From: a virus
IMG/VR virus record: IMGVR_UViG_3300049732_000377
Span: 1 to 31,094 of that record
Length of the DNA: 31,094 bases
Strand: one strand, 5' to 3'
Shown: positions 225 through 28,441 of the stretch, one piece after another
How the letters are laid out: each line of letters opens with the position of its first letter
Position numbering within the stretch: the first letter of the stretch is position 1
Translations under genes and position numbers: made by a program
The notes under the pieces: generated by a model
The model's database searches: none
What the model was told of the DNA's origin: nothing
The model's input: only the letters and a program-made list of their open reading frames with translations

Positions 225-2780
225 CTAGGCCTCCTGCTCGATGAGGTCGAAGAGGGAAGGGGTGGCCAGGTCGCGCGCCGCCGCGGCCAGGTGGGCGCAC
301 GCGTCCGCGAAGTAGCGCGCCGACAACTCGACGCCCAGCGCGCGCCGCCGCAGCTTGATGGCGCAGAGCGGCACGGTGCCGAGCCCCGCGAAGGGGTCCA
401 GCACCAGCTCGCCCTCCATCGAGAACTGAGCGATTAGCCGATCGGCCAGGTCGAACTGCATCGGGCACAGGTGCATCTCGGCGCCCTTCTGCACCTGGAC
501 CATGTTCAGCGTCCGCATCCGGGTGATGTCGGTCCAGACGTCGGGGTGCCAGCTCTGGGGCTGCAGCAGCATGAACGACGGCGGCAGCATGCCCTTCTGG
601 TCGAGATAGTCGGCGATCGAGACGTCGCGCTCGAAGTCGTAGACCTGGGTGAGCGAGTACTTGCGGAACAGCTTGAAGACGGCGGCGTGCGCGAGCCCGT
701 CCAGGTCAGAGAGCGCGATGGGGCGGTCGCCGTTGCTGCGCGTGAAGCCGTGCGCGTCGAACTGCCAGCGCCCGCGCGAGTACTTCTCCTTGGGCTTCAC
801 GACGGGAAGGTCAGCGAAGCCGCGCGTCCGGTCCGTCTGCGGCTTCCGGAACAGCAGCACGTACTCGGGCAGGCCCGCGCCCATGCGGGATCCGTCCTTG
901 CACTGCTCCGTCCAGCCCAGCCGATAGGTCTGCGAGTTCTCGCGGACGACGTCGGTGACCACGGTCTTGCGACCCAGGAAGCCGAACCCGTGCTTCGTGA
1001 AGTGAGCGACGCATTCGTCGCTGAGCGGGTGCACTGTCTGGAAGCCCAGCCCGTTGATCCCACCCGGCGTGATCCGGTCCTTGACGTGGACGGCGGCCAC
1101 GCGCCCTGGCTGGAGTACTCGCAGCAGCTCCGGCGTCAGGAAGTCCATCTGCCGCCAGAAGTGGGCGAAGTCGTCGGTGTGCCCGAAATCGTGGTAGCTG
1201 GGCGAGTACTCGTACTGGTGCGCGAACGGGATCGAAGTCAGCACCAGCCCGACGCTGTCGGCCTCGACTCGGGGCAGCTCCAGCACAGCGTCGTTGTTGA
1301 CGAGCTGGTAGCCGGGGCCCGAGGCCTCGACGCGAGGGACGCCCATCTGCCGTTCGAGCGCCTTGGCGGTCGCCGCGTGGGCCAGCCCGTACTGGCGGAT
1401 GATGGCCGCCATCTTCTCGACGAGCTGCTCGTGCTGGTGCCACTTCCGTTCCAGCGTGCGGCGGACCTCGCGTTCGGCCTCGGTGTAGATCAGGTCGACG
1501 CGGACGGGCCTGGTCTGGCCGTAGCGCTGCAGCCGGTGCAGGGCCTGGACGAAGTCGTGCAGCTTGAAACCGATGCCCAGGAAGATGGCCCAGGCGCAGT
1601 GGCGTTGCAGGTTGGTGCCCGCGCCCAGCATCACGGGCTTCGCGCCCAGCTCGGGGATCTCGCCGTCGCTGAAGGCCAGGATGGAGCGCTCACGCTCGTC
1701 CAGGTCCTGGCTGCCGTACACGGTCACGACGTCCGGGATTGCGGCCTCGATCGCTTCGCGCTCGGCTTCCAGGTCGTGCCAGAGGATCCGGTGCGCCGCA
1801 GGATCCTCGGCGCGCAGCTCCATCATCTTGGCCACTCGGGCGGGCAGGCTCTCCCGCTTCTCGCGCGAGGCCTCGGTCACGCCGATGGCGACGTCCTTGA
1901 ACATGCGGCCCTGGCCATCCTTCTCGGAGACCGCGCGGCTGTGGTCGGTGGGCACCTCGTGCCAGCGCACGTCGAGCGGGGGCAGCACGTAGCCCTCGTC
2001 GGAGTACTCGGAGCCGAGGTCGGACGGCTTCGACAGGAAGAGCGCCCAGGTCGAGACCCACAGCCAGAACTCATCCGCCTTGTGGGGGTGCAGTGTCAGG
2101 TGGTCGGCCTTCGTGGAATCGCGCTTGAAGAAGCGCGTCTTGGCCGCCGACACGTCCATGATGTCGAGATAGGCGGCGTAGGCCAGCAGCTCGATGTAGT
2201 CGTTGGGGCTGGGCATCGCCGTCGCCACGTAGCGGAACGGGACGCCGGGCGTCCTGGTGCCGCTCCGGTCGTCGCCGGCGAACAGGGCCATGAACTGGCG
2301 GAACGTCTCGGTGCCGCCGAACCCGCGCAGCACGGCCGCTTCGTCGAGGCTGGCCACGGTGAACAGGTTGGGGTCGATCTTCCCGTCCCGGACGCTCTCG
2401 TAGTTGGTGAGGTAGAGGCCTTCGGGATCGTCGGCCTCGGAGCCGCTGCGGATGAAGCGGGGCGGCTCCCTCCAGCCCAGGCGCTCGACGGCGTCGCGTC
2501 GGAACTCCAGGCGGACGCCCAGCGGGCAGACGATGAGGCCGCGGCCGCCGGCGCGCTCGCGCGTGAGCCTGACGGCCTCGAGCTGGGTGACCGTCTTCTG
2601 GAGGCCGAACCGGGAGAAGCACGCGGCTCGGCCGAGCCGGACCATCCACGGCACGATGGCGCGCACGTGGGGCTTGCAGGCGGGGTTCACGTCGGCTGGC
2701 GTGACCTCGAAGCCTCGCAGCGGGGTCGTGACGACCTTGCGCTGCAGGAAGGCCTGGTAGTCGGAGGCGGCCGCGCTCAC
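225..2780 (-). CDS. Helicase-DNA methyltransferase fusion (851 aa)
   Basis: The N-terminal half resembles SNF2/DEAD-type helicases: a Walker-A-like FGLQKT (residues 58-63), a DEAA box (146-149), and ATAMPSPND (about 186-194) followed by a helicase C-terminal part with ALHRLQRYGQ. The C-terminal half has amino-methyltransferase motifs: TSIPF (about 515, equivalent to the D/S-PPY catalytic motif IV) and DPFAGLGT (about 795, SAM-binding motif I). That motif order is typical of beta-class N4-cytosine/N6-adenine methyltransferases. Phage genes joining these two modules are known, and the expected role is methylation of phage DNA against host restriction. The start is GTG at 2780, where GTGA overlaps the stop of the small upstream gene; the longer in-frame upstream extension is the shadow of that gene. 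Walker A has Gln where GLGKT normally has Gly, so ATPase activity is uncertain. Confidence 0.85.
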   Translation of the reverse strand: MSAAASDYQAFLQRKVVTTPLRGFEVTPADVNPACKPHVRAIVPWMVRLGRAACFSRFGLQKTVTQLEAVRLTRERAGGRGLIVCPLGVRLEFRRDAVERLGWREPPRFIRSGSEADDPEGLYLTNYESVRDGKIDPNLFTVASLDEAAVLRGFGGTETFRQFMALFAGDDRSGTRTPGVPFRYVATAMPSPNDYIELLAYAAYLDIMDVSAAKTRFFKRDSTKADHLTLHPHKADEFWLWVSTWALFLSKPSDLGSEYSDEGYVLPPLDVRWHEVPTDHSRAVSEKDGQGRMFKDVAIGVTEASREKRESLPARVAKMMELRAEDPAAHRILWHDLEAEREAIEAAIPDVVTVYGSQDLDERERSILAFSDGEIPELGAKPVMLGAGTNLQRHCAWAIFLGIGFKLHDFVQALHRLQRYGQTRPVRVDLIYTEAEREVRRTLERKWHQHEQLVEKMAAIIRQYGLAHAATAKALERQMGVPRVEASGPGYQLVNNDAVLELPRVEADSVGLVLTSIPFAHQYEYSPSYHDFGHTDDFAHFWRQMDFLTPELLRVLQPGRVAAVHVKDRITPGGINGLGFQTVHPLSDECVAHFTKHGFGFLGRKTVVTDVVRENSQTYRLGWTEQCKDGSRMGAGLPEYVLLFRKPQTDRTRGFADLPVVKPKEKYSRGRWQFDAHGFTRSNGDRPIALSDLDGLAHAAVFKLFRKYSLTQVYDFERDVSIADYLDQKGMLPPSFMLLQPQSWHPDVWTDITRMRTLNMVQVQKGAEMHLCPMQFDLADRLIAQFSMEGELVLDPFAGLGTVPLCAIKLRRRALGVELSARYFADACAHLAAAARDLATPSLFDLIEQEA

Positions 2781-2914
2781 GCCCACACCGCCACGATCCA
2801 GCCGAGCGGGCTGTTGGTGATGCGCGCGACGTGGCGGCCTGGGTGGCCGTCGCCCTTCGAGCATCGGAAGAGGCAGCCCCACAGCGTGTACGTCCAGGTG
2901 CAAGAGCCCCTCAC
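2777..2914 (-). CDS. Small conserved-looking protein (45 aa)
   Basis: This 45-codon gene fills the gap between the Mom-like gene and the helicase-methyltransferase. It begins at a GTG overlapping the upstream stop (GTGA) and ends in a GTGA overlap with the downstream start, so translation is probably coupled on both sides. The protein is RGSCTWTYTLWGCLFRCSKG in its first part (after the start) and ends GWIVAVWA. It is rich in Trp and has three Cys. I do not recognise a family. It is too short for many gene callers but is supported by its exact fit in the operon. Confidence 0.7.
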   Translation of the reverse strand: MRGSCTWTYTLWGCLFRCSKGDGHPGRHVARITNSPLGWIVAVWA

Positions 2915-3711
2915 GCGGCCAACCTCTTCGGGAAGGCGCTCCCGGCGGGCAGCTCCAGAGCGCGCGAGAGCGCCCAGGCATACCTATGGTTCCCGTGGTG
3001 GCGCACGGGTCGCGTGAGCGCCATCGCGTCCGTCAGCCAGGCGCGCAGCTCCTGGACGTCGGCCTCACCGCTCCGGAGGCAACCGGGCGCCGCTGCCCCG
3101 AACCGCACGAGCTGGCCCACGGCGTAGCGCCAGCCCTTCTCGCCTGCGCGGATCTTCGAGATCGCGCGCGCCGACAGCACGGAACCGTCCGGGAGCAGCC
3201 GCAGGGTGCGGGGAGTCGAGCGTCCGAGGTACCGCCCGTTGTGCGCCTGGTAGATGGTGCCGAGGTGGCCAGGGAACACGACGACGCCCACGCTGGATCG
3301 ACGCGGGACCGGGTCGCTGAAGCTGAGGACGCCGGCGAACCCGTCGCGTTTCAACGCGCGGAAGGCCTGGCCCAGGAACCACGTCTCCCCGTTGCCGGGG
3401 ACTTCGTCGAGCAGGACGAATCGGCCCAGCTCGACAGCGTCGCGCGCGGCGGCGCCGAACACGACGGTCAGGGCCGCGTCGTTGCAAGGCTGCGAGAAGA
3501 CGGCGACGCCCGCCAGGTGGCCGCGGCGGAACAGGCCGAAGCGCTGGCGCGCCGCGGGGTAGCTGGCGCTGTAGTGGTGGCGCAGGACGAAGCGTTTCGC
3601 TGAGGCCTCGTCCACGGCAGCGACGTCGTACTCGCCGGTGCGGATGACCTCAGCCGGTGGACGGTACGCGTCTCTACCGTCGCGCCAGCGCTGGTTGCCG
3701 GCGGCGCTCAC
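2911..3711 (-). CDS. Mom-like DNA modification protein (GNAT-type fold, 266 aa)
   Basis: The sequence resembles the phage Mu Mom family, GNAT-like enzymes that convert adenine in phage DNA to N6-carbamoylmethyladenine so that host restriction enzymes do not cut. Matching pieces are FVLRHHYS (41-48), FGLFRRGHLAGVAVFS (58-73), ELGRFVLLDEVP (94-105), GVLSFSDPVP (127-136) and GTIYQAHNGRYLG (151-163), in family order. These correspond to the acetyltransferase-like beta strands and the SFSDP and IYQA core elements. The start is GTG at 3711, and the stop overlaps the next small gene. Its position just upstream of a methyltransferase gene supports an anti-restriction role. It could also be a GNAT relative with another substrate. 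Confidence 0.75.
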   Translation of the reverse strand: MSAAGNQRWRDGRDAYRPPAEVIRTGEYDVAAVDEASAKRFVLRHHYSASYPAARQRFGLFRRGHLAGVAVFSQPCNDAALTVVFGAAARDAVELGRFVLLDEVPGNGETWFLGQAFRALKRDGFAGVLSFSDPVPRRSSVGVVVFPGHLGTIYQAHNGRYLGRSTPRTLRLLPDGSVLSARAISKIRAGEKGWRYAVGQLVRFGAAAPGCLRSGEADVQELRAWLTDAMALTRPVRHHGNHRYAWALSRALELPAGSAFPKRLAA

Positions 3712-15090: not shown

Positions 15091-15315
15091 ATGGCGTTGG
15101 ACAGCAGAGAGCAGGTGCTACGCGCGCTGCGCGCGGCCCATTGGAACGTCAAGGAGGCGGCCGCCGCCCTGCGGGTCAGCCGCCAGGCCGTCTACGATGC
15201 CATGCGGCGCTTCGGCATCGAGCGCAAGCCGTCCCAGGAAGATCCCGCCGTCGTGAGCGAGCGCGCCCGGCGCTCGGCCAACGCGCGCTGGGAGCGCGAT
15301 CGGCAGCCGGCCTAG
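15091..15315 (+). CDS. Fis-type helix-turn-helix regulator (74 aa)
   Basis: Residues 7-45 (REQVLRALRAAHWNVKEAAA, then LRVSRQAVYDAMRRFGIERK) are a Fis-family HTH as found at the C-terminus of NtrC-type activators. The tail is basic (ERARRSANARWERDRQPA). With only this domain it should be a direct DNA-binding regulator, probably of the divergent early promoter, a place usually occupied by repressor or Cro genes in temperate phages. A larger regulator with a similar HTH is encoded at 17132. The stop TAG overlaps the integrase stop within CTAG (15312-15315), so the two genes converge. Confidence 0.8.
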   Translation: MALDSREQVLRALRAAHWNVKEAAAALRVSRQAVYDAMRRFGIERKPSQEDPAVVSERARRSANARWERDRQPA

Positions 15316-16709
15316 CCGGTCTTCTTCTCGAACCTGAGCGTCATCTGCAGCGCGGCCTCGCGCTCGCGGGTCTTCTCCATCTCCCAGGCCGCCACCTTCG
15401 CCACGGCGGCCGCGCGATCTCGGAGCGTGTCGATCTTGTACCGCTTCGCCATCGCGATCGTCTCCCAGCCCACCATGTAGCAGGCGGCCAGCAGGTCGCC
15501 GGTGGCCAGGTAGACGTTGCGGCACGCCGTCCGCCGGAAGTCGTGCGGCTTGCGCTCCTCGAGCCCGGCGCGTTTACACGCTGAGATCCAGGCCCTCCGG
15601 AAGTAGCGGATCGGGTCGCCGCCGCGGTGGAAGATGAACGGGACCTTGCGGCGCTCGCCGTCCCCGCGCGCCGCGTCGAGCTGCGCCTCCACGGCCTCGG
15701 TGATGCGCCGCCGCTTCTCCAGCAGCTTCTTCAGCCGAGGCCAGCCGCCGAAGGGCAGCACGCGCGCCTGGCCGCTCTTGTTGACGGCGGCCGGCAGCGT
15801 GAGCGTGTCCGAGAACCAGTTGCAGGTCCTCCACTCCAGCGCGCGCGGCTCGGCGCTCCGCCACCCGGTCAGGAAGTAGAACTCGGCGAGGTCGGACAGG
15901 TCCTCGGGGCCGGAGCGCTCGTCGCCGGCGCGCAGCGCACGGTGCACCTTCTCGAACTCGTCGTCCTCGAAGAAGCCCTCGCGCGGCGGCGCCTCCCGCA
16001 TGAGCTGGATCCGCGGCGCGCGCGCCACCAGCGCGTGCCCGTTCTCGTCGAGCCGCTTCGTCGCGATGTTGAATGCCTGGCGCAGCACGGCCAGGTCCCG
16101 GTTGATGGCGCCGTTCGTCGCCGGCTTGCGCGCCCGCGCGCTGCCGTCCTTCAACTTCTTCAGCGCGACGCCGCCGCCCTGCTTCCGCCAGGTCTTGAAC
16201 TCGTCGATGCGCGCCTCGGTGATCTTGCGCGCCTTCACCTTCCCCTTGTTCCAGGTCGGGAACGCGAGCATGGTGCGGATCGACAGTTCCATCCGCTTCA
16301 CCGACCGGTTGCCCTCGTTGGCGTAGTGCGTCTTCACCAGGTCGAGCAGGTCGGCGAGCGTGGGCTCCTCCTCCTCGAGCCAGGGTAGCTTCCCGCCCCA
16401 CAGCTCGCGCAGCAACTTCTTCTTGAGCTTGATCGCGTCGCTCTTGTTGGTCGACCTGGTGGGCGCCTTGTGGCGTTCGCCCTCGTGCCCGTACGCCACC
16501 CACCAGAACGCGCTCTCCTCGATGGCGCGGTGCTCCGCTGGCCCTCGCCGGTGCGCGAGGCATCTCGTGCAGCGCCACTTCCCATCGGCCTCGGACTCGA
16601 CCGGGCCGGGGCACTGTGTTCGCGTCGTGTACCGCGGGCGGAACACGTGAGCGAACGGCCTGTCGCCCACCAGGTCCTCAAGAGGGATGTCGCGTCGTCG
16701 TGGGCTCAT
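15312..16709 (-). CDS. int: Tyrosine-recombinase integrase (465 aa)
   Basis: The C-terminal catalytic domain has all tyrosine-recombinase residues: Arg284 (TGWRSAEPRALEW), Lys311 on the beta hairpin (VNKSGQARVLPF), HDFRR (His389, Arg392), Trp415 (MVGWETIAM) and nucleophile Tyr424 (AKRYKI). A SAM-like core-binding domain precedes it (about 117-225, from PTLADLLDLVKTHYA). The N-terminus carries Cys residues (TQCPGP, WRCTRC), perhaps an arm-binding zinc element. The enzyme should recombine the tRNA-Phe-derived attP at 14816-14861 with the host gene. ATG at 16709 has GAGG about seven nt upstream. It converges with the Fis-type gene. Confidence 0.93.
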   Translation of the reverse strand: MSPRRRDIPLEDLVGDRPFAHVFRPRYTTRTQCPGPVESEADGKWRCTRCLAHRRGPAEHRAIEESAFWWVAYGHEGERHKAPTRSTNKSDAIKLKKKLLRELWGGKLPWLEEEEPTLADLLDLVKTHYANEGNRSVKRMELSIRTMLAFPTWNKGKVKARKITEARIDEFKTWRKQGGGVALKKLKDGSARARKPATNGAINRDLAVLRQAFNIATKRLDENGHALVARAPRIQLMREAPPREGFFEDDEFEKVHRALRAGDERSGPEDLSDLAEFYFLTGWRSAEPRALEWRTCNWFSDTLTLPAAVNKSGQARVLPFGGWPRLKKLLEKRRRITEAVEAQLDAARGDGERRKVPFIFHRGGDPIRYFRRAWISACKRAGLEERKPHDFRRTACRNVYLATGDLLAACYMVGWETIAMAKRYKIDTLRDRAAAVAKVAAWEMEKTREREAALQMTLRFEKKTG

Positions 16710-16848
16710 GGTGCGGCCTCAGGTGGTGTGAGAGTCAATGCGCAACAAACGTGCATGCCCACTCGCTATGCACTGGTATACAAGGGGCCGGCGCCTTACG
16801 GCGCGTGGCCCCCAGGCGCCGCTGCAAATGTCAGAATCCGGGCAGTCC
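16710..16848. other. Integrase upstream region
   Basis: This non-coding stretch should hold the integrase promoter, but I find no convincing -35/-10 pair. Its main feature is the hairpin at 16784-16812. It is less GC-rich than the genes around it. Confidence 0.4.
16784..16812 (-). terminator. Terminator-like hairpin
   Basis: GGGGCC (16784-16789) pairs with GGCCCC (16807-16812) and inside it GCGCC (16791-16795) pairs with GGCGC (16800-16804) around a TTAC loop. On the minus strand the stem is followed by TTGTAT, a weak T-tract, so it best fits termination downstream of the 43-aa gene. It also separates that gene from the integrase. Confidence 0.5.
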
Positions 16849-16980
16849 CTACTTGGGAGGAAATCCCGAACCGTCCTCCATCGTGTGGACGGGCGCGTCC
16901 TTCTCGACACCGCGTCCGGACACCAAACCAGTGATGGAAAGCCCACCGAACAGCAGCGCGATCAAGAGCCAACGTGACAT
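16849..16980 (-). CDS. Small membrane or exported peptide (43 aa)
   Basis: The ATG at 16980 has a strong GGAGG six nt upstream. The peptide is a short basic start and hydrophobic helix (MSRWLLIALLFGGLSITGLV) followed by a polar tail (SGRGVEKDAPVHTMEDGSGF, ending PPK). This is either a single-pass membrane peptide or an exported micro-protein; no lipobox Cys is present. It is too short for most gene finders. Its place between integrase and the plus-strand cassette, with its own ribosome site and a hairpin after it, suggests a lysogenically expressed accessory gene. Confidence 0.6.
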   Translation of the reverse strand: MSRWLLIALLFGGLSITGLVSGRGVEKDAPVHTMEDGSGFPPK

Positions 16981-17093
16981 GCTCAACCTCCATGTATAGC
17001 GACTGAGTAGTTATCGACAGGGCGGAGTATCTGTCCGGTACACGGCGAAGTCCACCGAAAACGCGTTTACACGCGCGGACTCGAAAATGGATA

Positions 17094-17123
17094 TTGACCG
17101 CTCATGGAATGCGCGCGTAAAGT
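17094..17123 (+). promoter_or_regulatory. Promoter of the GAF-Fis/7-TM cassette
   Basis: TTGACC (17094-17099, 5/6), 18 nt, TAAAGT (17118-17123, 4/6). The -10 ends eight nt before ATG 17132, implying a leaderless or nearly leaderless mRNA. A CGCG-flanked motif CGCGTTTACACGCG (17062-17075) lies just upstream and could bind a regulator. Confidence 0.55.
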
Positions 17124-17131
17124 CGCGGCCC

Positions 17132-17710
17132 ATGCAGCACGTGGAGCGACTGGTCGGCCTTTTCGTCGAAGCTCATCCCCGCGCCACGATGGACCGCATG
17201 CTCTCTTTCCTCTGCGGCGAGCACGCCGCGGCCGGCGCGCTTCTGTTTGCGCTGGTCGACGGCGCGCCAGTCCTCGAAGGCACTCGCTCACTGCACCACG
17301 AGCGGTGGCGAGTGTTCCAGGGCGCCTGGCAGGATCATCGCAACCGCCTTCTCGCCGGCGAGGTCATCGAGGGCACCGGCTTCGTCGCCGCCGGGCTCAC
17401 GCACCGCGGATCCGTCGTCGGCCTGCTCTTCCTCGATGCTCCGTCGCGCTTCCGCGCCGAGGGCATCGACGTCTACTTGTTCGCGCTCGCCAAGGCCTTG
17501 CTCAGCGCGCGCGCCCAGGGCCCTGAGCTGTCGCCAGGAGTCGGCGTCGACCAGCGCGCGCTGCTGATCGCCGTCCTGGAGCGGCACGAATGGAACATCG
17601 CTCGCGTCGCCAGGGAGCTGCAGGTGACGCGCCGTACCATCTACCTGCGCATGGTCCGCTACGGGATCAAGCGGCGGCACGTACCTAAGCTGGCGAAGCC
17701 GGTCATATGA
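17132..17710 (+). CDS. GAF-like sensor with Fis-type HTH (192 aa)
   Basis: Residues about 1-125 have a GAF-like pattern: an N-terminal helix (VERLVGLFVEAHPRATMDRM), strands AGALLFALVDGAPVLEGTR, and GFVAAGLTHRGSVVGLLFLD, typical of small-ligand or signal-sensing domains. Residues 140-180 (QRALLIAVLERHEWNIARVA, RELQVTRRTIYLRMVRYGIK) are a Fis-type HTH. This is the layout of NtrC-type activators without the AAA+ domain, so it would regulate sigma70-type promoters rather than sigma54. ATG 17132 is preferred over 17087 because the promoter -10 lies at 17118-17123. The stop overlaps the 7-TM gene (ATGA), so the sensor is coupled to a membrane protein. Confidence 0.72.
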   Translation: MQHVERLVGLFVEAHPRATMDRMLSFLCGEHAAAGALLFALVDGAPVLEGTRSLHHERWRVFQGAWQDHRNRLLAGEVIEGTGFVAAGLTHRGSVVGLLFLDAPSRFRAEGIDVYLFALAKALLSARAQGPELSPGVGVDQRALLIAVLERHEWNIARVARELQVTRRTIYLRMVRYGIKRRHVPKLAKPVI

Positions 17711-18372
17711 GGATTGCCATGCAGGCCGCGGTGACCACCGCGCTGGCCATGGCCCTCTGCGGGCTGGCCGTCCGGCGCCGACTCTCGCTGTGCTGGTCCT
17801 TCGAGCCCTACGCGCTCGCCATCATCGTCTGCGGGAACCTGGCCACGCTGTGGCCGGAGCGCTTCTTCAACCGGGACTTCTGGCTCTTCAAGCAGGCGGT
17901 CTACGACGCGTGCAAGGTCGCGATCGCGCTGGAGCTGTCCTGGCGGGTGCTGCGCGCGTTCCCCGGAGCCGCGCGCGCGCTCAGGCCCTGGATCTACGCG
18001 CTGCTCGCGGCGACCACCGTGATGGTCATCGTTGGCCCGCCCAGGACCTACGCGCGCATCGAGGAGTGGCAGCCGCGTGTGCTGCTGGGCGTGACGTGGC
18101 TGTTCGTGGCCACCACCATCGCCACGCTGTGGTACCGGATCCCCGTCCGCCTGTGGCACCGGGCTCTGCTGCTCGGGTTCTCCGTCTACATGGTGGTGTT
18201 CGTCGGCGTGCTGCAGCTCTTCCGAGTGAACGCGCCGTGGATGGGGTTGGTCGACGGTGGCGCGTATCTGCTTCTGACCTGGTCGTGGGCCGTTTTGGCG
18301 TGGCGCACCGAGCCGGTGCCCGCCGGCATGTCGCCGGCGCTCCTTCGGCGGCTCGGGATGGAGGCGCGTTGA
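17707..18372 (+). CDS. Seven-transmembrane protein (221 aa)
   Basis: About seven hydrophobic helices can be counted, roughly at residues 4-22, 34-50, 65-85, 98-113, 122-141, 150-170 and 178-197, for example WIYALLAATTVMVIVG and LLLGFSVYMVVFVGVLQLF. Between helices 2 and 3 is a soluble loop PERFFNRDFWLFKQAVYDA. There is no transporter motif or obvious signal-transduction output domain. The ATGA overlap with the GAF-Fis gene and TTGA overlap with the following gene make a three-protein system likely. It may sense or pass an envelope signal. The family is not named with confidence. Confidence 0.72.
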   Translation: MRIAMQAAVTTALAMALCGLAVRRRLSLCWSFEPYALAIIVCGNLATLWPERFFNRDFWLFKQAVYDACKVAIALELSWRVLRAFPGAARALRPWIYALLAATTVMVIVGPPRTYARIEEWQPRVLLGVTWLFVATTIATLWYRIPVRLWHRALLLGFSVYMVVFVGVLQLFRVNAPWMGLVDGGAYLLLTWSWAVLAWRTEPVPAGMSPALLRRLGMEAR

Positions 18373-19046
18373 CCGGCGCGTTCGTCGTCGCGATTGCCGT
18401 GGGCGCCCTGGTGGTGATGATCGGCTTTGGCCGGTACAGGCACCGTGAAGTCCTGCGGGACTGGTCGGGCATCCTGTCGCCGGAAGGCGCGCGCACGGTC
18501 GAGGCGGTGGAGGACCACGCCGCCATGGATCGCCACATGGCCGACGAGGCCTGGGGCCGCGCCATGATCGCCCAGGAGTCGCGCGAGTGGGCCGAGGCCG
18601 TGCGGCTGCTCGAGCTGGCCTATTGGGTGATCGAGGACGCGACCCCGGCGCGCCTGGAGCGCCTGCGCGCGATGACGCGCGTCTGCCGCCAGGCGGCGGC
18701 AGTGCTGCCGATGCCGGCCATCCAGACCGGGGCCTTCCGGCTGGGCCGGCTGCGGACCCTGGCTGGTGCTGGCGCCGCGTTGCACGCGATCCTGGTCGCG
18801 CCCACGGAAAGGATCGTGCTGCGCACGCGTCTACTGGCGGCCGGGCTGCGCATGGCGCTCTGGACGATGCGGCGGGCCCGAGCTGGCGCCGCACACCGGC
18901 CGGAGAGGGGGAAGGCCTGGCGCGCGTTCGATGCGGCGCTGGCCGACTGGAAGACGCTCGACGTCGAGCACCTCCAGACGTACCGGGCGGCGATGATGGT
19001 GCTGGCGGCCGAGCTGCGGCGCGAGGTGCCGGTTACGCTGTCGTGA
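18369..19046 (+). CDS. Membrane-anchored helical protein (225 aa)
   Basis: The TTG start overlaps the 7-TM stop (TTGA). Residues 3-20 form one membrane helix (GAFVVAIAVGALVVMIGF), followed by a basic turn and an all-helical cytosolic part: WSGILSPEGARTVEAVEDHA, EWAEAVRLLELAYWVIEDAT, ALADWKTLDVEHLQTYRAAM. WAEAVRLLELAYWV resembles a tetratricopeptide-like helix, but no clean repeat is seen. It probably works with the 7-TM protein, for example as a scaffold. Unknown family. Confidence 0.68.
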   Translation: MTGAFVVAIAVGALVVMIGFGRYRHREVLRDWSGILSPEGARTVEAVEDHAAMDRHMADEAWGRAMIAQESREWAEAVRLLELAYWVIEDATPARLERLRAMTRVCRQAAAVLPMPAIQTGAFRLGRLRTLAGAGAALHAILVAPTERIVLRTRLLAAGLRMALWTMRRARAGAAHRPERGKAWRAFDAALADWKTLDVEHLQTYRAAMMVLAAELRREVPVTLS

Positions 19047-19270
19047 ACCGCGGTATGATCCCGGCCCCGATGACCGATCCCAGGGGCATCCTTCGGCTGG
19101 TGAGGCCGCCGTCCGGCATGGGCCCGGACGAGGCCGAGCGACCGCTCACGGAAGAGGAGCTGCTCGCGCTGGTGGACCGTTGCGTGAGCGACCAGCACCG
19201 CTGGCTCGCGTATCGGGCCGTGGTGGAGATCGCTCGGCTGCGGCGGCAGGCGGCCGAGCGCGCCGACTAG
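19043..19270 (+). CDS. Small helical protein closing the cassette (75 aa)
   Basis: GTG at 19043 overlaps the previous stop (GTGA). Alternative starts are ATG 19055 and ATG 19070; TATGAT at 19054-19059 lies ten nt before the latter and could be a -10 for a leaderless transcript, but no good -35 is seen. The protein has a helical core (EEELLALVDRCVSDQHRWLA, YRAVVEIARLRRQAAERAD). Its stop shares CTAG with the stop of the converging zinc-ribbon gene. Confidence 0.6.
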   Translation: MNRGMIPAPMTDPRGILRLVRPPSGMGPDEAERPLTEEELLALVDRCVSDQHRWLAYRAVVEIARLRRQAAERAD

Positions 19271-19675: not shown

Positions 19676-20398
19676 TTATGCCGCCGACTCGTCGGCCTTG
19701 CCCGCGACGCGCTCGAAGGCGCGGCCGCAGCGCGAGCACGTCGCCTGCCAGTCGTCGGAGGCCACGCGCACCTTGTTGGTGATCCCGGCCTTGGGGTCCG
19801 GGGTGCAGCCGCACAGGTAGAGGCGCATCCGGCTGCCGCTGCCGGCGCCGCGCGACTTGCCGCCGCGCGTCCCGATGCCCAGCGGGCAGCGGCGGAACTT
19901 CGCCACCGGGAGGCCCACGCCCGACCCCGCGCCCATGGTGAACATCGGCTTGCCGTCGTTGGGCTCGGGAAGAGCGGCGATCGCGTTCCACAGTTCCGGC
20001 GCGAAGTGCTCCTCCGAGTAGGCCTGCCCGCCGGCCTCGGCGTGGCGCAGCCCCAGCATCCTGCAGGCCGCCTTCCACTCGACTCCGTGCCCGGTACCGC
20101 GCCCGGCCAGTACGTGGGCCGTCTCGTGGATCGTGGTCCCGGCGAGCTGCACGGTGCTTTCCTCGCCCGTGGCCGCCACCTCCACGAACTCGACCGGGGG
20201 CTGCTCGCCGCGCTGCCAGGCCGCGTAGTAGCAGAGGCCGCGCACGCCGCCCGGGCCGGCCCCGTAGACGAGCTTTGCCGCCAGGAGGCGCTCACGCACC
20301 GGGGGCGCCGGGATCAGGGCCACCGCGAGGGCCCGGACCTCGTGGATGAACTGCTCCCGGGTCATCTTCGGCTTCGGCTGCTCGCTCGCGTTCTTCAT
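19676..20398 (-). CDS. SprT-like zinc metalloprotease (240 aa)
   Basis: TTIHETAHVLAGR gives the catalytic HExxH (His91, Glu92, His95) and GTGHGVEWK a third ligand (His104), the arrangement of SprT/Spartan-like proteases. The C-terminus has Cys196/Cys198 and Cys221/Cys224 (LCGC, CSRC), the zinc ribbon of the family. Eukaryotic Spartan degrades DNA-protein crosslinks; phage relatives are less understood. The ATG at 20398 is only six nt from the promoter -10 box and has no ribosome site, so its mRNA is probably leaderless. It is the first gene of an operon with the two small genes downstream, under the iterated operators. Confidence 0.82.
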   Translation of the reverse strand: MKNASEQPKPKMTREQFIHEVRALAVALIPAPPVRERLLAAKLVYGAGPGGVRGLCYYAAWQRGEQPPVEFVEVAATGEESTVQLAGTTIHETAHVLAGRGTGHGVEWKAACRMLGLRHAEAGGQAYSEEHFAPELWNAIAALPEPNDGKPMFTMGAGSGVGLPVAKFRRCPLGIGTRGGKSRGAGSGSRMRLYLCGCTPDPKAGITNKVRVASDDWQATCSRCGRAFERVAGKADESAA

Positions 20399-21892: not shown

Positions 21893-22137
21893 TACACACT
21901 CTCCAGTCGGACAGGGATGATCGTGCCGGGCATCTGCTCGCCCAGCAGGAAGACGCGCGTAGGCGGTGGCGTCAGCCGCTCGCGGTATAGGGTGAAGATC
22001 CGGGTCCCGTCGCACTCAGGGCAGACGATGTAGTCGTCGCCGCACAGCCACAGCCGGCCCGGGTAGTGCGAATGCAGGCACGTCGGGCAGGGCTTGTCGA
22101 TGCGCGTGATTCCGGCGCGGTCGCGGTGGACGCTCAT
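21892..22137 (-). CDS. Small zinc-ribbon protein in the tail module (81 aa)
   Basis: ATG 22137 overlaps the tail-tip gene stop (ATGA). Cys pairs CPTC and CPECDG plus a Cys in LWLCGDDYIV form a DnaJ-type zinc ribbon; the C-terminus is EQMPGTIIPVRLESV. Zinc-binding proteins at this position may stabilise the tail tip or act as chaperones. The big ORF in this region is a shadow of the tail-tip gene. Confidence 0.7.
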   Translation of the reverse strand: MSVHRDRAGITRIDKPCPTCLHSHYPGRLWLCGDDYIVCPECDGTRIFTLYRERLTPPPTRVFLLGEQMPGTIIPVRLESV

Positions 22138-25094
22138 ACGAGGCCAGGCCGGCCAGCGATCAGGTGCTGACGGTTGCGCGGGAACAGTCCCAGCAGCTCG
22201 GCGAGCCCGCGATCGAGCGCCTGGCCGAAGACCTGCATGATGGTGCCGACCTCGTCGAGCGCGCGCGGCAGGTCGGCGGTGTAGGCGACGACGTTGCAGA
22301 CGTGCGTCTGCGGGTCCTTGCGGATCGAGAGGATCCTGAAGACCTCCTCGTTGGCCATGCCCTCCACTTCGGCGCCCAGCATCCGCGTCCGCTGGATCCT
22401 GACCAGGTCGCCCACCGTCTTCTTGAGCAGCCGGCCCTTCAGCGAGAAGGTCACGCGCCGCCGCGGCAGAACGGCCAGCAGCATCTGGTTCCATGCCTGG
22501 GCCTGGACGTCGGCCGCCTCCCAGCAGAGCGTGTCGAACTGGCGAGGGAGCCTCTGGTTGTGGCGCAGCGCGACACCGTTGTTGCTGGCCTCGCGTGTCT
22601 TGACGATGCCCGTCACCGGGTCCTCGTCGTACGTCAGGATGACGGACGCGTAGGTGTCCTCGATCGTCTTCCCCGAGCGGAAGGACAGGAAGTCGCGGTC
22701 GGTGAGGAGCGGCGCCGTGGCCGCCTGCTCCGCGAGCTGGACGGATGAGGTTGCCCGCGGGCGCCAGTACCAGACGCCATTCCCGTCCAGGCTGACGTCG
22801 GCGTGCGTGCTGACCTCGAAGCGGTCGATGATCTCCTGCACGGTGAGCGTGGCGCTGGGGCCGAGCCCTCCCAAGTACAGGTTGACGGCGATCTGGTGGC
22901 TGGTCCTGGCAGCCACGAACGACGCGAGGTCGATCGACGACGACGGGAGGCCCAGGATCTTGACCAGGATGAAGTGCAGCGCGGTGGGGATCTTGTAGAT
23001 GATGGCCGTCGTACCGCCGCCGGTTACTCCCGTGAAGCGGCCGTCCGTGTGGTCGCGGTAGCCCGTGGCGTCCACTCGGATGATGAACTGATCCGCGCGG
23101 CTCTCGTCGTAGAGCGCGGTCCCCGACTGGCTCAGGCCGGACAGGTCCGCCGACCCCTCGAAGCCGAACACGGGCCACGCCGAGCGGTGCTTGTTCGCGC
23201 CGCTGGACAGTGGGATGCTCATCGTCCCGCCCGCGTAGTTCACCGATACCTGATGCGTGGTGTTGCTGTACGCCACGGCCACGTCCGGTACCACCAGCGC
23301 ATCCAGCGCCGCCTCTGCCGCAGCGCACAGCGTGGTGCAGGTGTACAGGCCAGGCGTCAGATAGACGACGTACGTCACGCCGTCGAGGATGATGTCCAGC
23401 GCGTCATTCATCCGCACTTCGCGCACCACGTCAGCCGACGCGGCGCCGCCGAAAATCTCGAAGGGGCCGGGGTTGCTGAACATCGACGCCCGGCCGGTCG
23501 TAGCGTCCGAGGTGAACTCGCACGCGACGCGCCGGTCCTGGTCGCGGCGGTTGGCCGCGTCCTCGTCGGTGTAGGCCCACATGGCGACCTGGCCCATGAC
23601 GTCCGTCCCGTTGCCCCAGGTCGGATCGTTGACCTCGAAGATGGGGAGACGGTTGGTCAGGCCCAGCGCCACGCGGGGAGGTCGCATGTTGTACTTCGGG
23701 CCGCCGATCAGGATCGGTCGCGGGCGCCCGACGTCACGGTCCGACATCTCCGGGGACACGGTGCGGCCCAGGGTCTCCACGGGCAGCAACACGCTCAGCG
23801 CCAGCCGTGTGTCCTGAGCGTCGAGGGTGGCGTCGAGGTCACCGACGTCGTAGTCGCGCACCTCTCCGCTGAATTGCGACCAGAGGTCGTCGCGCGTGAT
23901 CTCCTGCCCGTCGTCGAAGCTGCCGCCCTGCTGGACCGCCGCGTACCGGCCGCCCACGTCGTAGGACCCCAGCAACGTCTCCAGGTAGCCGCGCGGCATG
24001 TCCGCATCGCCGTCCCTGTTGAGCAGCCGGATGCCGGTGAGTCCCACCGACTCAGCGCCCATGAAGGGGTCCTCGCTGCTGATCTCCACCGCCGGCAGCG
24101 CGCTCGACCCCAGCCGGGGCTCCACGTACTCGTAGCGCCAGACGGGCCTGAAGGTGCTGCTGTAGACGATCATGTAGCCCGTGCTGATGGAGGAGGCCTT
24201 GCCGTTGTGGAGGAGGGCGGCGATGGCGAGGCTGGAGTTGGTGGTGGGCGCGCGCCAGGCGAAGATGGCGCGCTTTCGCTCTCCTCCCGTCTTCTTCAGC
24301 TCGAGCCCGGTGGTGGTGGCCGTCTCGGTCCGGCCGTCGTCAGCGATGGAGTTGCCGACCGGGGATAGCCGCACGCGCAGGCGTGGCGTCAGCTCCGGCG
24401 GGATGTCCGGCGAGGTCGAGTACTCGATCGCGGTCCAGTACAGCCCGCCGATGACGGTCGTCAGCGCGGCCTGCTGGATGCCGCCGATGGCGCCGGCCGA
24501 CTGTCCGCTGGCTCCTGGCCGGATCATGGCCGCGAAGACCCCGTCGACGACGATCTGCTGGACCGCGACGCCGGTGGCGCTGACCCCGATCTCGTTCCAG
24601 CTCCCCAGGTCCGTCGGCGCGGGCCAGTCTTGGAGCGTCGCGTTGGCGAGCTTCTCCGGGCCGAACAGCGGCTCCGTGCTGCCCACGCTGCTGAACAGGC
24701 GCAGGAAGTCGACGCGGATAATCGTGTCCCGCGGGTCGGCGTCGTCCTCCAGGTGCACGTACAGGGTGCTCGGAGATCCGGGCAAGAAATAGAACGAATC
24801 GGCGGTGCCTGAGACCTCGGACACCGACTCCTTGCGCGTCAGCACCTGGCCGTCGAGGCCGACGACCGCGCCGACCTCGAGCGGCACGCCCTCGAACTCC
24901 TCGGTGAACTGCGTGCTGTAGGTGCCGGTGTCGTCGATCGGAGCAACCCAGAGGGTGTCGACCTGTCGCCCCAGCAATAGCTGAACGAACCCGCGGCGCT
25001 CGCAGTAGGTCTGCTCCGTGAGCTCGTTGAAGGTACGTAGCCCGGAGCGCAACCCCAGCGCCCCGTGGCCGATTCGACTGAGCGGTCGGCTCAC
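22134..25094 (-). CDS. Large tail-tip/baseplate protein (986 aa)
   Basis: Gene order (tape measure, then a 371-aa protein, then this one) matches the siphovirus order of tape measure, distal tail protein and tail-associated tip protein, so this is probably the host-contacting tip. Beta-rich modules dominate. Residues about 563-670 (NDALDIILDGVTYVVYLTPG...) repeat a domain also present at residues 56-145 of the preceding gene. The C-terminal 250 residues contain VTFSLKGRLLKKTVGDLVRI, resembling the tail-protein domains that close the tip ring. GTG at 25094 (GTGA overlap). No enzymatic motif is visible. Confidence 0.75.
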   Translation of the reverse strand: MSRPLSRIGHGALGLRSGLRTFNELTEQTYCERRGFVQLLLGRQVDTLWVAPIDDTGTYSTQFTEEFEGVPLEVGAVVGLDGQVLTRKESVSEVSGTADSFYFLPGSPSTLYVHLEDDADPRDTIIRVDFLRLFSSVGSTEPLFGPEKLANATLQDWPAPTDLGSWNEIGVSATGVAVQQIVVDGVFAAMIRPGASGQSAGAIGGIQQAALTTVIGGLYWTAIEYSTSPDIPPELTPRLRVRLSPVGNSIADDGRTETATTTGLELKKTGGERKRAIFAWRAPTTNSSLAIAALLHNGKASSISTGYMIVYSSTFRPVWRYEYVEPRLGSSALPAVEISSEDPFMGAESVGLTGIRLLNRDGDADMPRGYLETLLGSYDVGGRYAAVQQGGSFDDGQEITRDDLWSQFSGEVRDYDVGDLDATLDAQDTRLALSVLLPVETLGRTVSPEMSDRDVGRPRPILIGGPKYNMRPPRVALGLTNRLPIFEVNDPTWGNGTDVMGQVAMWAYTDEDAANRRDQDRRVACEFTSDATTGRASMFSNPGPFEIFGGAASADVVREVRMNDALDIILDGVTYVVYLTPGLYTCTTLCAAAEAALDALVVPDVAVAYSNTTHQVSVNYAGGTMSIPLSSGANKHRSAWPVFGFEGSADLSGLSQSGTALYDESRADQFIIRVDATGYRDHTDGRFTGVTGGGTTAIIYKIPTALHFILVKILGLPSSSIDLASFVAARTSHQIAVNLYLGGLGPSATLTVQEIIDRFEVSTHADVSLDGNGVWYWRPRATSSVQLAEQAATAPLLTDRDFLSFRSGKTIEDTYASVILTYDEDPVTGIVKTREASNNGVALRHNQRLPRQFDTLCWEAADVQAQAWNQMLLAVLPRRRVTFSLKGRLLKKTVGDLVRIQRTRMLGAEVEGMANEEVFRILSIRKDPQTHVCNVVAYTADLPRALDEVGTIMQVFGQALDRGLAELLGLFPRNRQHLIAGRPGLV

Positions 25095-26206
25095 GGCAGC
25101 GCCCGCACCAGCTTGAATTTGGCGGTCCAATACTGGCCGCCGGCGGCAGCCACGATCGGCAGCCCGCCATCACGAAAGCCGTACTCGAAGTCCAGCGTGT
25201 CGACTCCCGCGTCGAACCCGAACCCGAAGCACTTCCCCTTCGGCGTCGCGCTGCGGTGCGCCCGGAAGATGTCCGCGTCCGCCGTCGGCACTTCGAGGAA
25301 CTCCAGGTCGTACGCCGGCGCCTCCACCTTGAGGTCCCCGTACAGCGCTCCTTCGGTGGCGCGCTCGATCTCGGACAGGTCGTCGCCCTCCTCCTGGTAG
25401 TTGACCGAGAAGCCGACGCTGGGCTGGCGGTACAGCCCCGAGTAAGCGATTCCGACCTCGTTGAAGCCGTCCGTGTTGCCGGGGTCGAAGATGACGAACA
25501 CGGCGTAGCGATACGTCTGCACGGACGCGAAGTAGCTGATGGACAGATCGCCCGTGCCGGTCAGGAACTCGCTGTAATTGGGCGTGGTGAGGGCGTGCAG
25601 CACCGACGTGTTCGACAGGCAGAAGCGGATGACCGCGTCGGAAGTGGTGTTCGTGTCGACCAGGAACGCGGCCTGGTGGTCCATGGCGCTTCCGAGGTCG
25701 ACTGCGACCCAGTGCCGGCCGTGGTAGCTGGCGTCGTCGGCCGTGAAGGTGGTGGCCGCCGCGGTCAGGCCTCCGGAGGTGTCCCAGCCCATGTCGTTCC
25801 AGAGACGCTGCGCTGCGGCGTCCACCGTCCCGAAGGCCAGCTTGAAGGGCAGGTCGGCACTGATGGTGAACTTCTTCGTGCTGTCGCTGTAGGTGACGGC
25901 CCACACTGGGGTCGGGTCCGCCGCCTCGAGACCGGAGCGAATCGCCTCGCACAGGATCGCCGCGGTGGCGTAGGTGGCTCCGGCCAGCGTGATCGTGAAG
26001 TTGCCCGGGCCGGCGGCGCGGTTGAAGTCGAGCTTGTCGTTGTAGCCGGTGGTGACGACCCATCCCGTGTCGGACCGCCACGGCTTGCTGCGGAGCTGGT
26101 CCAGTAGGAACCGTGGCGGGCAGCTCGTGATGTAGGAATCGGCCGTCAGCACCGCGCCCGACGTCTTCCACGTGTTCTGGTCCAGGATTCGGCAGGTGCG
26201 GGGCAA
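25091..26206 (-). CDS. Probable distal-tail/minor tail protein (371 aa)
   Basis: The start is TTG at 26206: AGGAGG lies six nt upstream, and it directly follows the tape-measure stop. The protein is beta-rich. Residues 56-145 (NDKLDFNRAAGPGNFTITLA, then YSDSTKKFTISA) form the same domain as in the next, larger gene. The C-terminal region (EEGDDLSEIERATEGALYGD ... GGQYWTAKFKLVRALP) resembles receptor-binding or distal-tail pieces. Position after the tape measure suggests the Dit-like role; sequence alone does not prove it. Confidence 0.65.
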   Translation of the reverse strand: MPRTCRILDQNTWKTSGAVLTADSYITSCPPRFLLDQLRSKPWRSDTGWVVTTGYNDKLDFNRAAGPGNFTITLAGATYATAAILCEAIRSGLEAADPTPVWAVTYSDSTKKFTISADLPFKLAFGTVDAAAQRLWNDMGWDTSGGLTAAATTFTADDASYHGRHWVAVDLGSAMDHQAAFLVDTNTTSDAVIRFCLSNTSVLHALTTPNYSEFLTGTGDLSISYFASVQTYRYAVFVIFDPGNTDGFNEVGIAYSGLYRQPSVGFSVNYQEEGDDLSEIERATEGALYGDLKVEAPAYDLEFLEVPTADADIFRAHRSATPKGKCFGFGFDAGVDTLDFEYGFRDGGLPIVAAAGGQYWTAKFKLVRALP

Positions 26207-28441
26207 TCACATCCTCCTGGTGTTGCGCTTCTCCCGGCCGTATCCGAGGCCCTGGCGCTTCGCGACCTGACGCGTGACGACGGCGCCATCGAGGTAGGTG
26301 GGGCCGACGGAGATGTGGGCGGGTCGGCTGCCACCGTTGGCCGCGGCGGCCGCCTGCACGGCACCGGCGACGATCTGCTTGAGCTGCTGGCTGCGCAGCA
26401 CCACCTCAGGGTCAGCGTCGGTCCCGTGCAGGACGGCCGGCACGCCCCAGCCGGTCACGACGCCGCCGCCGGCCAGGGAGTGGACGTCTCCGTCTCCGCC
26501 GCCCCTGTCGCCTGGCGAGGAAATGTTGGGATGGACGTTGACCGGGATGTTGATATCGCCGAGGCCGTAGAGCCGGCTGATCGCCTCGACCAGGCGCTCC
26601 ATCTGCTCGGCGGCGCGCCCCATCGAATCCTGGAGCGAGGAGCCGAAGGTGATGCCGGCTTCCTCGGCCGTCTGGAAGGCCTGCCCGTTCTCGTCGAGGA
26701 TCTTGCCCTGGGCGAGCAGCTCCTCCACGATCTTGCGCATGTCCTCGGGGATCGCGGCCCCGGCCTGGCGCGCCTGGTTCACGTACTCGATCATCGACGG
26801 CCCCATCTTGTCGATGACGAGGTTGTGGTCGGCGCCGGCCTGCGTCAGGAGCTTGTACTTCTCGAACAGCGACATCGCCTGCTGGTCCAGCTCCTGCTGC
26901 GCGAACTTCGGCCCCATCTGGCCGATCTCGATGCCGAACTCGCGCATCGCATCCTTGACCTTCTGCGTGGCCTGGTCGGTGATGCCGAAGGCGTTGTTGA
27001 GCTGGTCGATGGCGCCCTGGAGCGCGTTGCGGTCTTTCGCTCGCAGCAGCGCGTCCAGGGTCATCCCGGCTTCCTTGGCCTTGCGGTTCAGCGCATCGAG
27101 GCCTCCTGCGGCCGCGATGAACTGGTCGCGCATGTCGTTGGTCTTCTTGCCCTCGCCGCCGAAGAGGCCGCTGAAGAGGGAGCCGATGCCGCCGCCGAGG
27201 AGCGCGCCGAGTGGGCCCGCTACGCCGCCGATGGCGCCGCCCAGCGTTCCGCCGATGGACTTCTTGAGGGTTTCGCCGAGGCCAGATCCGATGGATGCGC
27301 CGAGGCTAGCGCCGATCGCGCGCCCGACGTCGCCGCCGCCCTGGATGGCGCCCAGGATCACCTGCGGCAGGTTCTCGACACCAGCCTTGAGGGACCGCTT
27401 CAGCTCGCCAGTGATGACCGGGCCCCAGGAACTACCCTTGCCACCAGCGGCACCCAACTGCTGATTGAGCAGGTCGCCAAAGTTCTTCCCAATCGGCATG
27501 AGCATCCCGGCGGCGGCCATGATCCGCTGGTTGAGGACCGCCTGGGTCGCCTCGAAGTTCGCCTTGTCGGCCGCCACCAGGCCGGACAGCGCGGCCTCCC
27601 ACTTCTTCTCTTCCTTCTCGTAGAACTCGGTCCAGTGCTTCTCGTTGGCGGCCGCGCGCCCGCGCTCGAACTCTTCGTCAAGCCGCTTCTGCTGCTCGCG
27701 GTGCTTGTTCGCCGCGGCGGCGGCCTTCTCGTGCTTTTCGGCGAGCTCCTGAAGGAGCCCTGCGCCAGCCGTCAGGACCGGCTTGGCCTTCCCCTGCAGG
27801 TACTCGATCGCCTCCTTCGTGTTCTGCCCGTGTTTCGTCTGCCACTCGAGCTGCTTTTTCGTGGCCTCGACGTTGGCCTTGGCCACCTCCGCCTGCTGTT
27901 TGGCCAAGCCCGCCGTAGCGGCGGCCATCTCCATCATTGGCGTCTTCATGCCAACGATGAGCATCAGGGAGTCCCGAAGGTCGTCCGTGGCCTTCGTCAC
28001 CGCCGGGAAGGTGTTGAGCCAGGAACCGATGGCGAGGCCGATGGAGAGGCCCGCGCCCACCACGCCGGCCGTCGCGGCGTTGAAGCCCATCGCCGTGGTC
28101 TTGAGGTTCTTGAAGCCCACGCCGGCCAGGTCCAGCGTCGCCGAGAGGCCCTTCGTGTTCTGGATGGGCCCTCCGAGCGCCGAGTCGAAGGCCGCCAGGG
28201 TGTTCGCCGCGCGCTGGGTGTCGTCGCTGGCGCTCTTGAAGGCGCTGTTCATCTTCAGCGCCTCTTCGTGCATCGCCTCCATGCGCTGCGCGGCGCGCTG
28301 CTGCGTGGCCGTCCAGTCCTGAAACTTCTTGTCCGTCCGGTCGACGCTGTCCTGCATCGCCTTCTGGCCGGCTACGAACTGGGCGAAGGTGGCCTCAGTC
28401 TGGTTCTTCGCCGCCAGCACCATCTGGAGGGTCTGGTCCAT
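26207..28441 (-). CDS. Tail tape-measure protein (744 aa)
   Basis: Classic tape-measure build: a helical, coiled N-terminal half (FAQFVAGQKAMQDSVDRTDK; AEKHEKAAAAANKHREQQKR), hydrophobic Gly/Ala segments (AATAGVVGAGLSIGLAIGSW about 120-142; GGAIGGVAGPLGALLGGGIG about 393-415) and a Gly-rich C-terminal part. It sets tail length and passes through the tail during DNA injection; at roughly 1.5 angstrom per residue the tail would be about 110 nm. The chaperone genes lie upstream, with a plus-strand insert between. ATG at 28441. Confidence 0.9.
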   Translation of the reverse strand: MDQTLQMVLAAKNQTEATFAQFVAGQKAMQDSVDRTDKKFQDWTATQQRAAQRMEAMHEEALKMNSAFKSASDDTQRAANTLAAFDSALGGPIQNTKGLSATLDLAGVGFKNLKTTAMGFNAATAGVVGAGLSIGLAIGSWLNTFPAVTKATDDLRDSLMLIVGMKTPMMEMAAATAGLAKQQAEVAKANVEATKKQLEWQTKHGQNTKEAIEYLQGKAKPVLTAGAGLLQELAEKHEKAAAAANKHREQQKRLDEEFERGRAAANEKHWTEFYEKEEKKWEAALSGLVAADKANFEATQAVLNQRIMAAAGMLMPIGKNFGDLLNQQLGAAGGKGSSWGPVITGELKRSLKAGVENLPQVILGAIQGGGDVGRAIGASLGASIGSGLGETLKKSIGGTLGGAIGGVAGPLGALLGGGIGSLFSGLFGGEGKKTNDMRDQFIAAAGGLDALNRKAKEAGMTLDALLRAKDRNALQGAIDQLNNAFGITDQATQKVKDAMREFGIEIGQMGPKFAQQELDQQAMSLFEKYKLLTQAGADHNLVIDKMGPSMIEYVNQARQAGAAIPEDMRKIVEELLAQGKILDENGQAFQTAEEAGITFGSSLQDSMGRAAEQMERLVEAISRLYGLGDINIPVNVHPNISSPGDRGGGDGDVHSLAGGGVVTGWGVPAVLHGTDADPEVVLRSQQLKQIVAGAVQAAAAANGGSRPAHISVGPTYLDGAVVTRQVAKRQGLGYGREKRNTRRM

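Follow-up and report, generated by a model that had tools for sequence, protein, structure and literature searches.

The regulator and two membrane proteins of a viral gene cassette (A, B and C) are found together at 17 loci of Acidobacteriota genomes besides the viral one, and a small ORF encoding an exported-type peptide diverges from the regulator gene at all 18 loci. We give about an even chance to the reading that a temperate phage captured, with this cassette, a peptide-based system for signalling between Acidobacteriota cells, which would probably feed the lysogeny decision of the phage.

Cassette Layout in the Viral Genome

The window, i.e., the whole stretch of DNA analysed here, comprises 31,094 bases and corresponds to a virus record of IMG/VR that is classed as linear; its right end is prolonged by L003, a contig of 12.4 kb from the same virus which shares about 99% identity with it. 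An earlier note on this DNA had described a cassette of four plus-strand genes with overlapping ends, located in the integration region. The four ORFs are indeed present where the note had placed them, neighbours overlapping by four bases (ATGA 17707-17710, TTGA 18369-18372 and GTGA 19043-19046), and an integrase gene lies nearby. The interval drawn around A to D was nevertheless too narrow, as it left outside a conserved minus-strand gene, that of the peptide precursor. The features are as follows.

15312..16709, minus strand: tyrosine integrase, its gene following that of the peptide on the same strand (Phage_integrase 1e-11, phrog_1 2.5e-34)
16776..16781, no strand: sole GTATAC of the window, in the interval that separates the peptide gene from the start of the integrase gene; putative operator
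16849..16980, minus strand: gene of the 43-aa peptide precursor, MSRWLLIALLFGGLSITGLVSGRGVEKDAPVHTMEDGSGFPPK; oriented away from A, co-directional with the integrase gene
16852..16878, minus strand: candidate mature signal EDGSGFPPK, the last nine residues, with approximate ends; aligns with the tandem motif of L204, L205, L170 and L174
16981..17131, no strand: control region separating the divergent peptide gene and A; its length is 125-190 bp at almost every locus
16987..16991, minus strand: Shine-Dalgarno-like GGAGG, six bases 5' of the peptide ATG, from the sequence; similar in relatives
17094..17123, plus strand: promoter-like TTGACC-N18-TAAAGT 5' of A, found by scanning; ATTGACC precedes A at 7 of 18 loci
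17132..17710, plus strand: A, GAF-Fis regulator, 192 aa (family domain matches, alignment)
17707..18372, plus strand: B, seven-TM protein, 221 aa, candidate receptor (helices, positive-inside pattern, variable outer loops)
18369..19046, plus strand: C, TTG start, 225 aa, candidate relay (N-terminal TM segment, cytosolic helical domain; conserved beside B)
19043..19270, plus strand: D, GTG start, 75 aa, overlapping the end of C; phage-specific, outside the conserved set

For A, the start at 17132 is preferred over that at 17087, on the basis of the family alignment and of the conserved promoter-like element. From the cassette relatives, the host of the window phage may be placed in the Acidobacteriota.

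Domains and Topology of the Encoded Proteins

When searched alone, the window copy of A matches an HTH only, across Pfam, PHROG, NCBIfam, PADLOC and PDB; this HTH is of Fis type (Pfam HTH_8, 6e-11), and the GAF domain of this copy falls below threshold. At the family level, HTH_8 is present in 16/16 members and Pfam GAF in 9/16 (best 1e-11), which settles in favour of the earlier note the authenticity of the GAF-like domain on which its GAF-Fis assignment depended. The A copies of L206 and L171 appear damaged or divergent. B has seven helices, with an N-out/C-in charge pattern, and in C a single TM segment at the N-terminus precedes a stretch rich in K/R, the charge pattern of C also pointing to N-out/C-in, with a cytosolic domain, so that the seven-helix and membrane-anchored descriptions of the note both hold. 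No family explaining B, C or D was found in Pfam, PHROG, NCBIfam, PADLOC or PDB, and kinase, receiver and protease families match no member of A, B or C. AlphaFold2 models of single proteins reach a mean pLDDT of 48 for A and 56 for B. The cassette was also considered as a defence system, a possibility rejected as there is no PADLOC match.

Distribution of the A-B-C Set

When B was used as a query against 297 Acidobacteriota genomes, matches were obtained in three, and A and C homologues adjoin B there. A five-member B profile then gave strong matches in 12 of 193 genomes of one Acidobacteriota class, several of which carry two or three copies; rpoB places this class outside both Thermoanaerobaculia and Terriglobia. 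In the profile searches that yielded the 17 loci, A, B and C are all co-located wherever the locus is uncut by contig ends. C, searched independently in the same class, gave 22 matches, 19 of which adjoin B while three start at a contig edge, and B without C occurs only as decayed copies (L175 and L219). The co-occurrence that the earlier note had proposed to check is therefore borne out for A, B and C, C always being found beside B away from contig ends. It does not extend to the fourth gene: D belongs to no conserved set and was rejected as a conserved partner.

Gene order varies: B-C come after A in certain branches of the family, whereas one other branch has them after the peptide gene. 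An extra 91-aa ORF, to which we assign no role, lies between B and C in L208 (4729-5004, minus strand), where the B-C gap is larger than elsewhere. The decayed B of L175 (9647-10326, minus strand) is split over two frames, and its sequence is close to the intact L170 copy of the same genome.

The set is rare phylum-wide (5/396 genomes), and C is absent from 284 Myxococcota genomes in a search run without positive control. Most copies are chromosomal, near housekeeping genes, and no shared neighbour was seen among them that would reveal an output. The phage sensory system suggested by the earlier note is thus not phage-specific, even though its sensory part is strengthened by the exported-type peptide and the pattern of evolution described below. 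Scans of the IMG/VR, phage and plasmid collections for close relatives of A, B and C returned nothing, which is a weak test for other viral copies. Similarly, the cassette is absent from the retrieved stretches of 80 viral relatives of the window's helicase-methyltransferase, and 40 of the records of such relatives lack B over the whole record, many of these records being fragments.

Copies in Mobile Elements

A second phage-borne set near an integrase was found besides that of the window. It is carried by an Acidobacteriota prophage (L214/L255, i.e., L214 1-11001 with L255, in G354, contig 140), recognized by PHROG matches to an integrase, CI-like and Cro-like HTH proteins, ParB, a terminase, a head protease, a major head protein and connectors. 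The cassette sits there between the integrase gene and the CI-like gene, and the orientation of the set relative to the integrase gene differs from that in the window. The C protein of this prophage appears shortened. In a tree of the joined proteins this copy is distant from the window copy, which indicates that phages acquired the set either at least twice or long ago. The position beside the integrase gene in these two phages leads us to infer a link of the cassette with lysogeny or induction, as the earlier note had suggested. In addition, one cassette (L174/L256, G114 contig 101) lies beside recombinase-, ParA- and VirB4-like ORFs, identified by reading alone, in a conjugation-type context.

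A Divergent Gene for an Exported-Type Peptide

At all 18 loci, window included, the small ORF is found at the same place and in the same orientation relative to A, and is 32-68 residues long. Its ATG lies 125-190 bp from the start of A, except in L174 (284 bp). These ORFs have a Shine-Dalgarno-like site, a hydrophobic N-terminus and a short, Pro/Gly-rich C-terminal peptide. In four precursors the terminal motif is repeated in tandem, three times in L204 (ADGSTGIPPHY), L205 (AEGGAAFPTY) and L170 (DGMTGIPP), and less exactly in L174. A fixed rule on length and hydrophobicity selects 16/18 loci vs 3.6% of dinucleotide shuffles; when the terminal motif, defined after the loci were viewed, is added to the rule, the proportions are 16/18 and 0.1%. 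The decayed locus L219, which was not used to define the motif, has such a peptide too.

Some precursors have no obvious signal-peptidase site, and no transporter, modification enzyme or double-glycine leader was seen with the peptide ORFs. The conserved set consists of the peptide gene, A, B and C only, and includes no exporter or protease gene.

Evolution of the Set

In four close pairs of loci, the peptide gene shows dN of 0.35-0.49 and dS of 0.85-1.33 (NG86, on short genes). As dN is below dS in all four, the peptide gene is coding and fast-diverging. B is less conserved than C in 5/5 comparable pairs and less than A in 5/6, the exception being L212/L213; between L215 and L216, for example, identity is 57% for B, 81% for A and 88% for C. 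Within B, the predicted outer loops are 48% identical in the compared pairs and the inner loops 73%. Moreover, when several sets are present in one genome, each copy has a different peptide. Judged from the sequences, this is the pattern that a co-diverging signal and receptor would leave.

Control Region

GTATAC is present in the peptide/A region of 10/18 loci, vs an expectation of 0.55 sites given the background of the loci themselves. The prophage L214/L255 has one GTATAC in about 48 kb, inside its peptide/A region. The peptide/A region of the window has no exact GTATAC; the single copy in its 31 kb is the one at 16776. A TTGACC-type element is found 5' of A in several loci. Both elements were noticed post hoc and are to be taken as leads.

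Proposed Mechanism and Alternatives

The mechanism that we propose is the following. The divergent small gene would produce a precursor exported via its hydrophobic N-terminus, the last 8-11 residues of which would be released as the signal. B, with its N-terminus and variable loops outside, would sense this peptide, and C, a membrane-anchored neighbour of B whose domain is cytosolic, would relay the state of B to A, whose GAF domain would control the Fis DNA-binding domain. A could then act, positively or negatively, on the divergent promoter, providing feedback on the peptide. In the phage, A would probably act in the direction of the peptide and integrase genes, so that the density of phage or lysogens could inform the lysogeny decision.

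Signalling is favoured by the linkage of A, B and C at 17 loci together with the exported-type ORF in 18/18, by the tandem repeats of four precursors and the dN below dS of a fast-diverging peptide, by the variability of the outer loops of B, the highest in the protein, by the genomes that carry more than one set, with a distinct peptide for each, and by the combination of a GAF domain with a Fis HTH among A proteins. It is weakened by the lack of an exporter or protease in the set and of a shared chromosomal neighbour, by the damaged or divergent A of L206 and L171, by the missing exact GTATAC in the peptide/A region of the window, and by the post hoc nature of the terminal motif rule. Alternatively, the small protein could remain membrane-bound and serve B as a regulatory subunit, the set sensing something else, for instance the state of the membrane or a small molecule bound by the GAF domain, without any cell-cell signal. 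The precursors devoid of an obvious signal-peptidase site would fit this idea, and small-ligand binding is frequent among GAF domains; tandem repeats of the terminal motif are however better suited to the release of several copies, and the outer loops of B are the most divergent, as expected with an external peptide, so that we regard such a subunit as improbable. Still less probable, in our opinion, is a bacteriocin-like set, in which the exported peptide would be antimicrobial, B (with C) would confer immunity and A would control expression. Toxin-immunity pairs would likewise account for a small exported peptide that adjoins a membrane protein of matching divergence, but the mature parts are very short, soluble, Pro/Gly-rich and present in tandem within one precursor, no transporter, modification enzyme or double-glycine leader was seen, and the dedicated divergent GAF-Fis regulator of every set suits signalling better.

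If signalling is accepted, what it does for the phage has to be considered. A link to lysogeny is favoured by the location of the second prophage set between the integrase and CI-like genes, and by the GTATAC that occurs once in the window, a short distance upstream of the integrase gene. The own CI-like repressor of the prophage and its different set-integrase orientation weaken the idea of a phage decision. The peptide signalling could alternatively serve lysogenic conversion, altering or jamming group behaviour of the host while other genes take the phage decision. The chromosomal location of most copies near housekeeping genes and the CI-like and Cro-like genes of the second prophage are in agreement with such a role. 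The proximity of the cassette and integrase gene in both phages, the co-directionality of the window peptide and integrase genes, and the lack of another repressor in the window (ORFs scanned with Pfam and PHROGs; the record may be incomplete) argue against it, and we consider lysogenic conversion rather unlikely. Signalling linked to the lysogeny decision is the reading that we favour. With signals that are proposed to be short and linear, it lends itself directly to tests with synthetic peptides.

Relation to Known Systems

The arbitrium system (AimP-AimR-AimX) and the phage Rap-Phr systems belong to the RRNPP family and are found in Bacillus phages, and tandem pheromone copies are known in phage Phr precursors (PMC6536502, PMC10075063, PMC11343458). 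RRNPP systems combine a small precursor with a hydrophobic export segment and a C-terminal peptide, and an adjacent regulator, the receptor being a TPR protein of 250-500 aa (PMC10075063). The cassette resembles them by its precursor features and adjacent regulator, in 18/18 loci, and by its presence in phage lysogeny regions; under the proposed reading it would operate like peptide quorum sensing and, when phage-borne, like arbitrium (PMC6536502). It differs by the absence of a TPR receptor, in place of which are found the seven-TM B, the anchored C and the GAF-Fis A (about 190-240 aa), and by its occurrence in Acidobacteriota, not Bacillota. TPR families match neither A nor B, and only one of 18 C members gives a weak TPR_12 match (E 0.034).

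With Agr and ComQXPA, the cassette shares a small precursor, a multi-pass membrane protein (B, with its seven helices) and an intracellular regulator. Unlike them, it has no matched histidine kinase, response regulator or AgrB-type protease; no processing or export gene (AgrB, ComQ or ABC exporter) belongs to the set, and B matches no protease family. The Clostridioides phage phiCDHM1 carries agr genes (PMC3901668), and is the nearest open-access precedent that we found for phage carriage of a membrane-type peptide system. Finally, A resembles NifA/NtrC by its GAF domain and C-terminal Fis-type HTH, but lacks their central sigma-54 AAA+ domain, its matches being to HTH and GAF only.

No description of the cassette was found in the open-access literature, and it can provisionally be considered as new. 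In the open-access literature covered, phage-encoded peptide communication is described for Bacillota phages. If the proposed reading is true, Acidobacteriota and their phages would use a system of unrelated parts, and the guidance of phage decisions by peptides would have had more than one origin. A soil phylum that is dominant yet poorly studied would moreover gain a first candidate route for peptide signalling, with a bacterial seven-TM candidate receptor that carries no kinase.

Other Genes of the Window

The window also encodes RecE/RecT-like genes and, at 225-3711 on the minus strand, a helicase-methyltransferase adjoining a Mom-like DNA modification gene; relatives of the former are found in phages and prophages across many phyla. 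Another small HTH protein of Fis type (74 aa, HTH_8 6e-7) is encoded at 15091-15315 on the plus strand, convergent with the integrase gene and overlapping its end by four bases; it is possibly an excisionase or a regulator. Just past the cassette and on the opposite strand lies a SprT-like metallopeptidase-type ORF (19676-20398, minus strand; phrog_6361, weak Pfam SprT-like match). Three large ORFs of 998, 371 and 744 aa at 22134-28441 (minus strand), without PHROG matches, are probably tail proteins, by position. The sole other IMG/VR occurrence of the 744-aa ORF is in another contig of the same virus.
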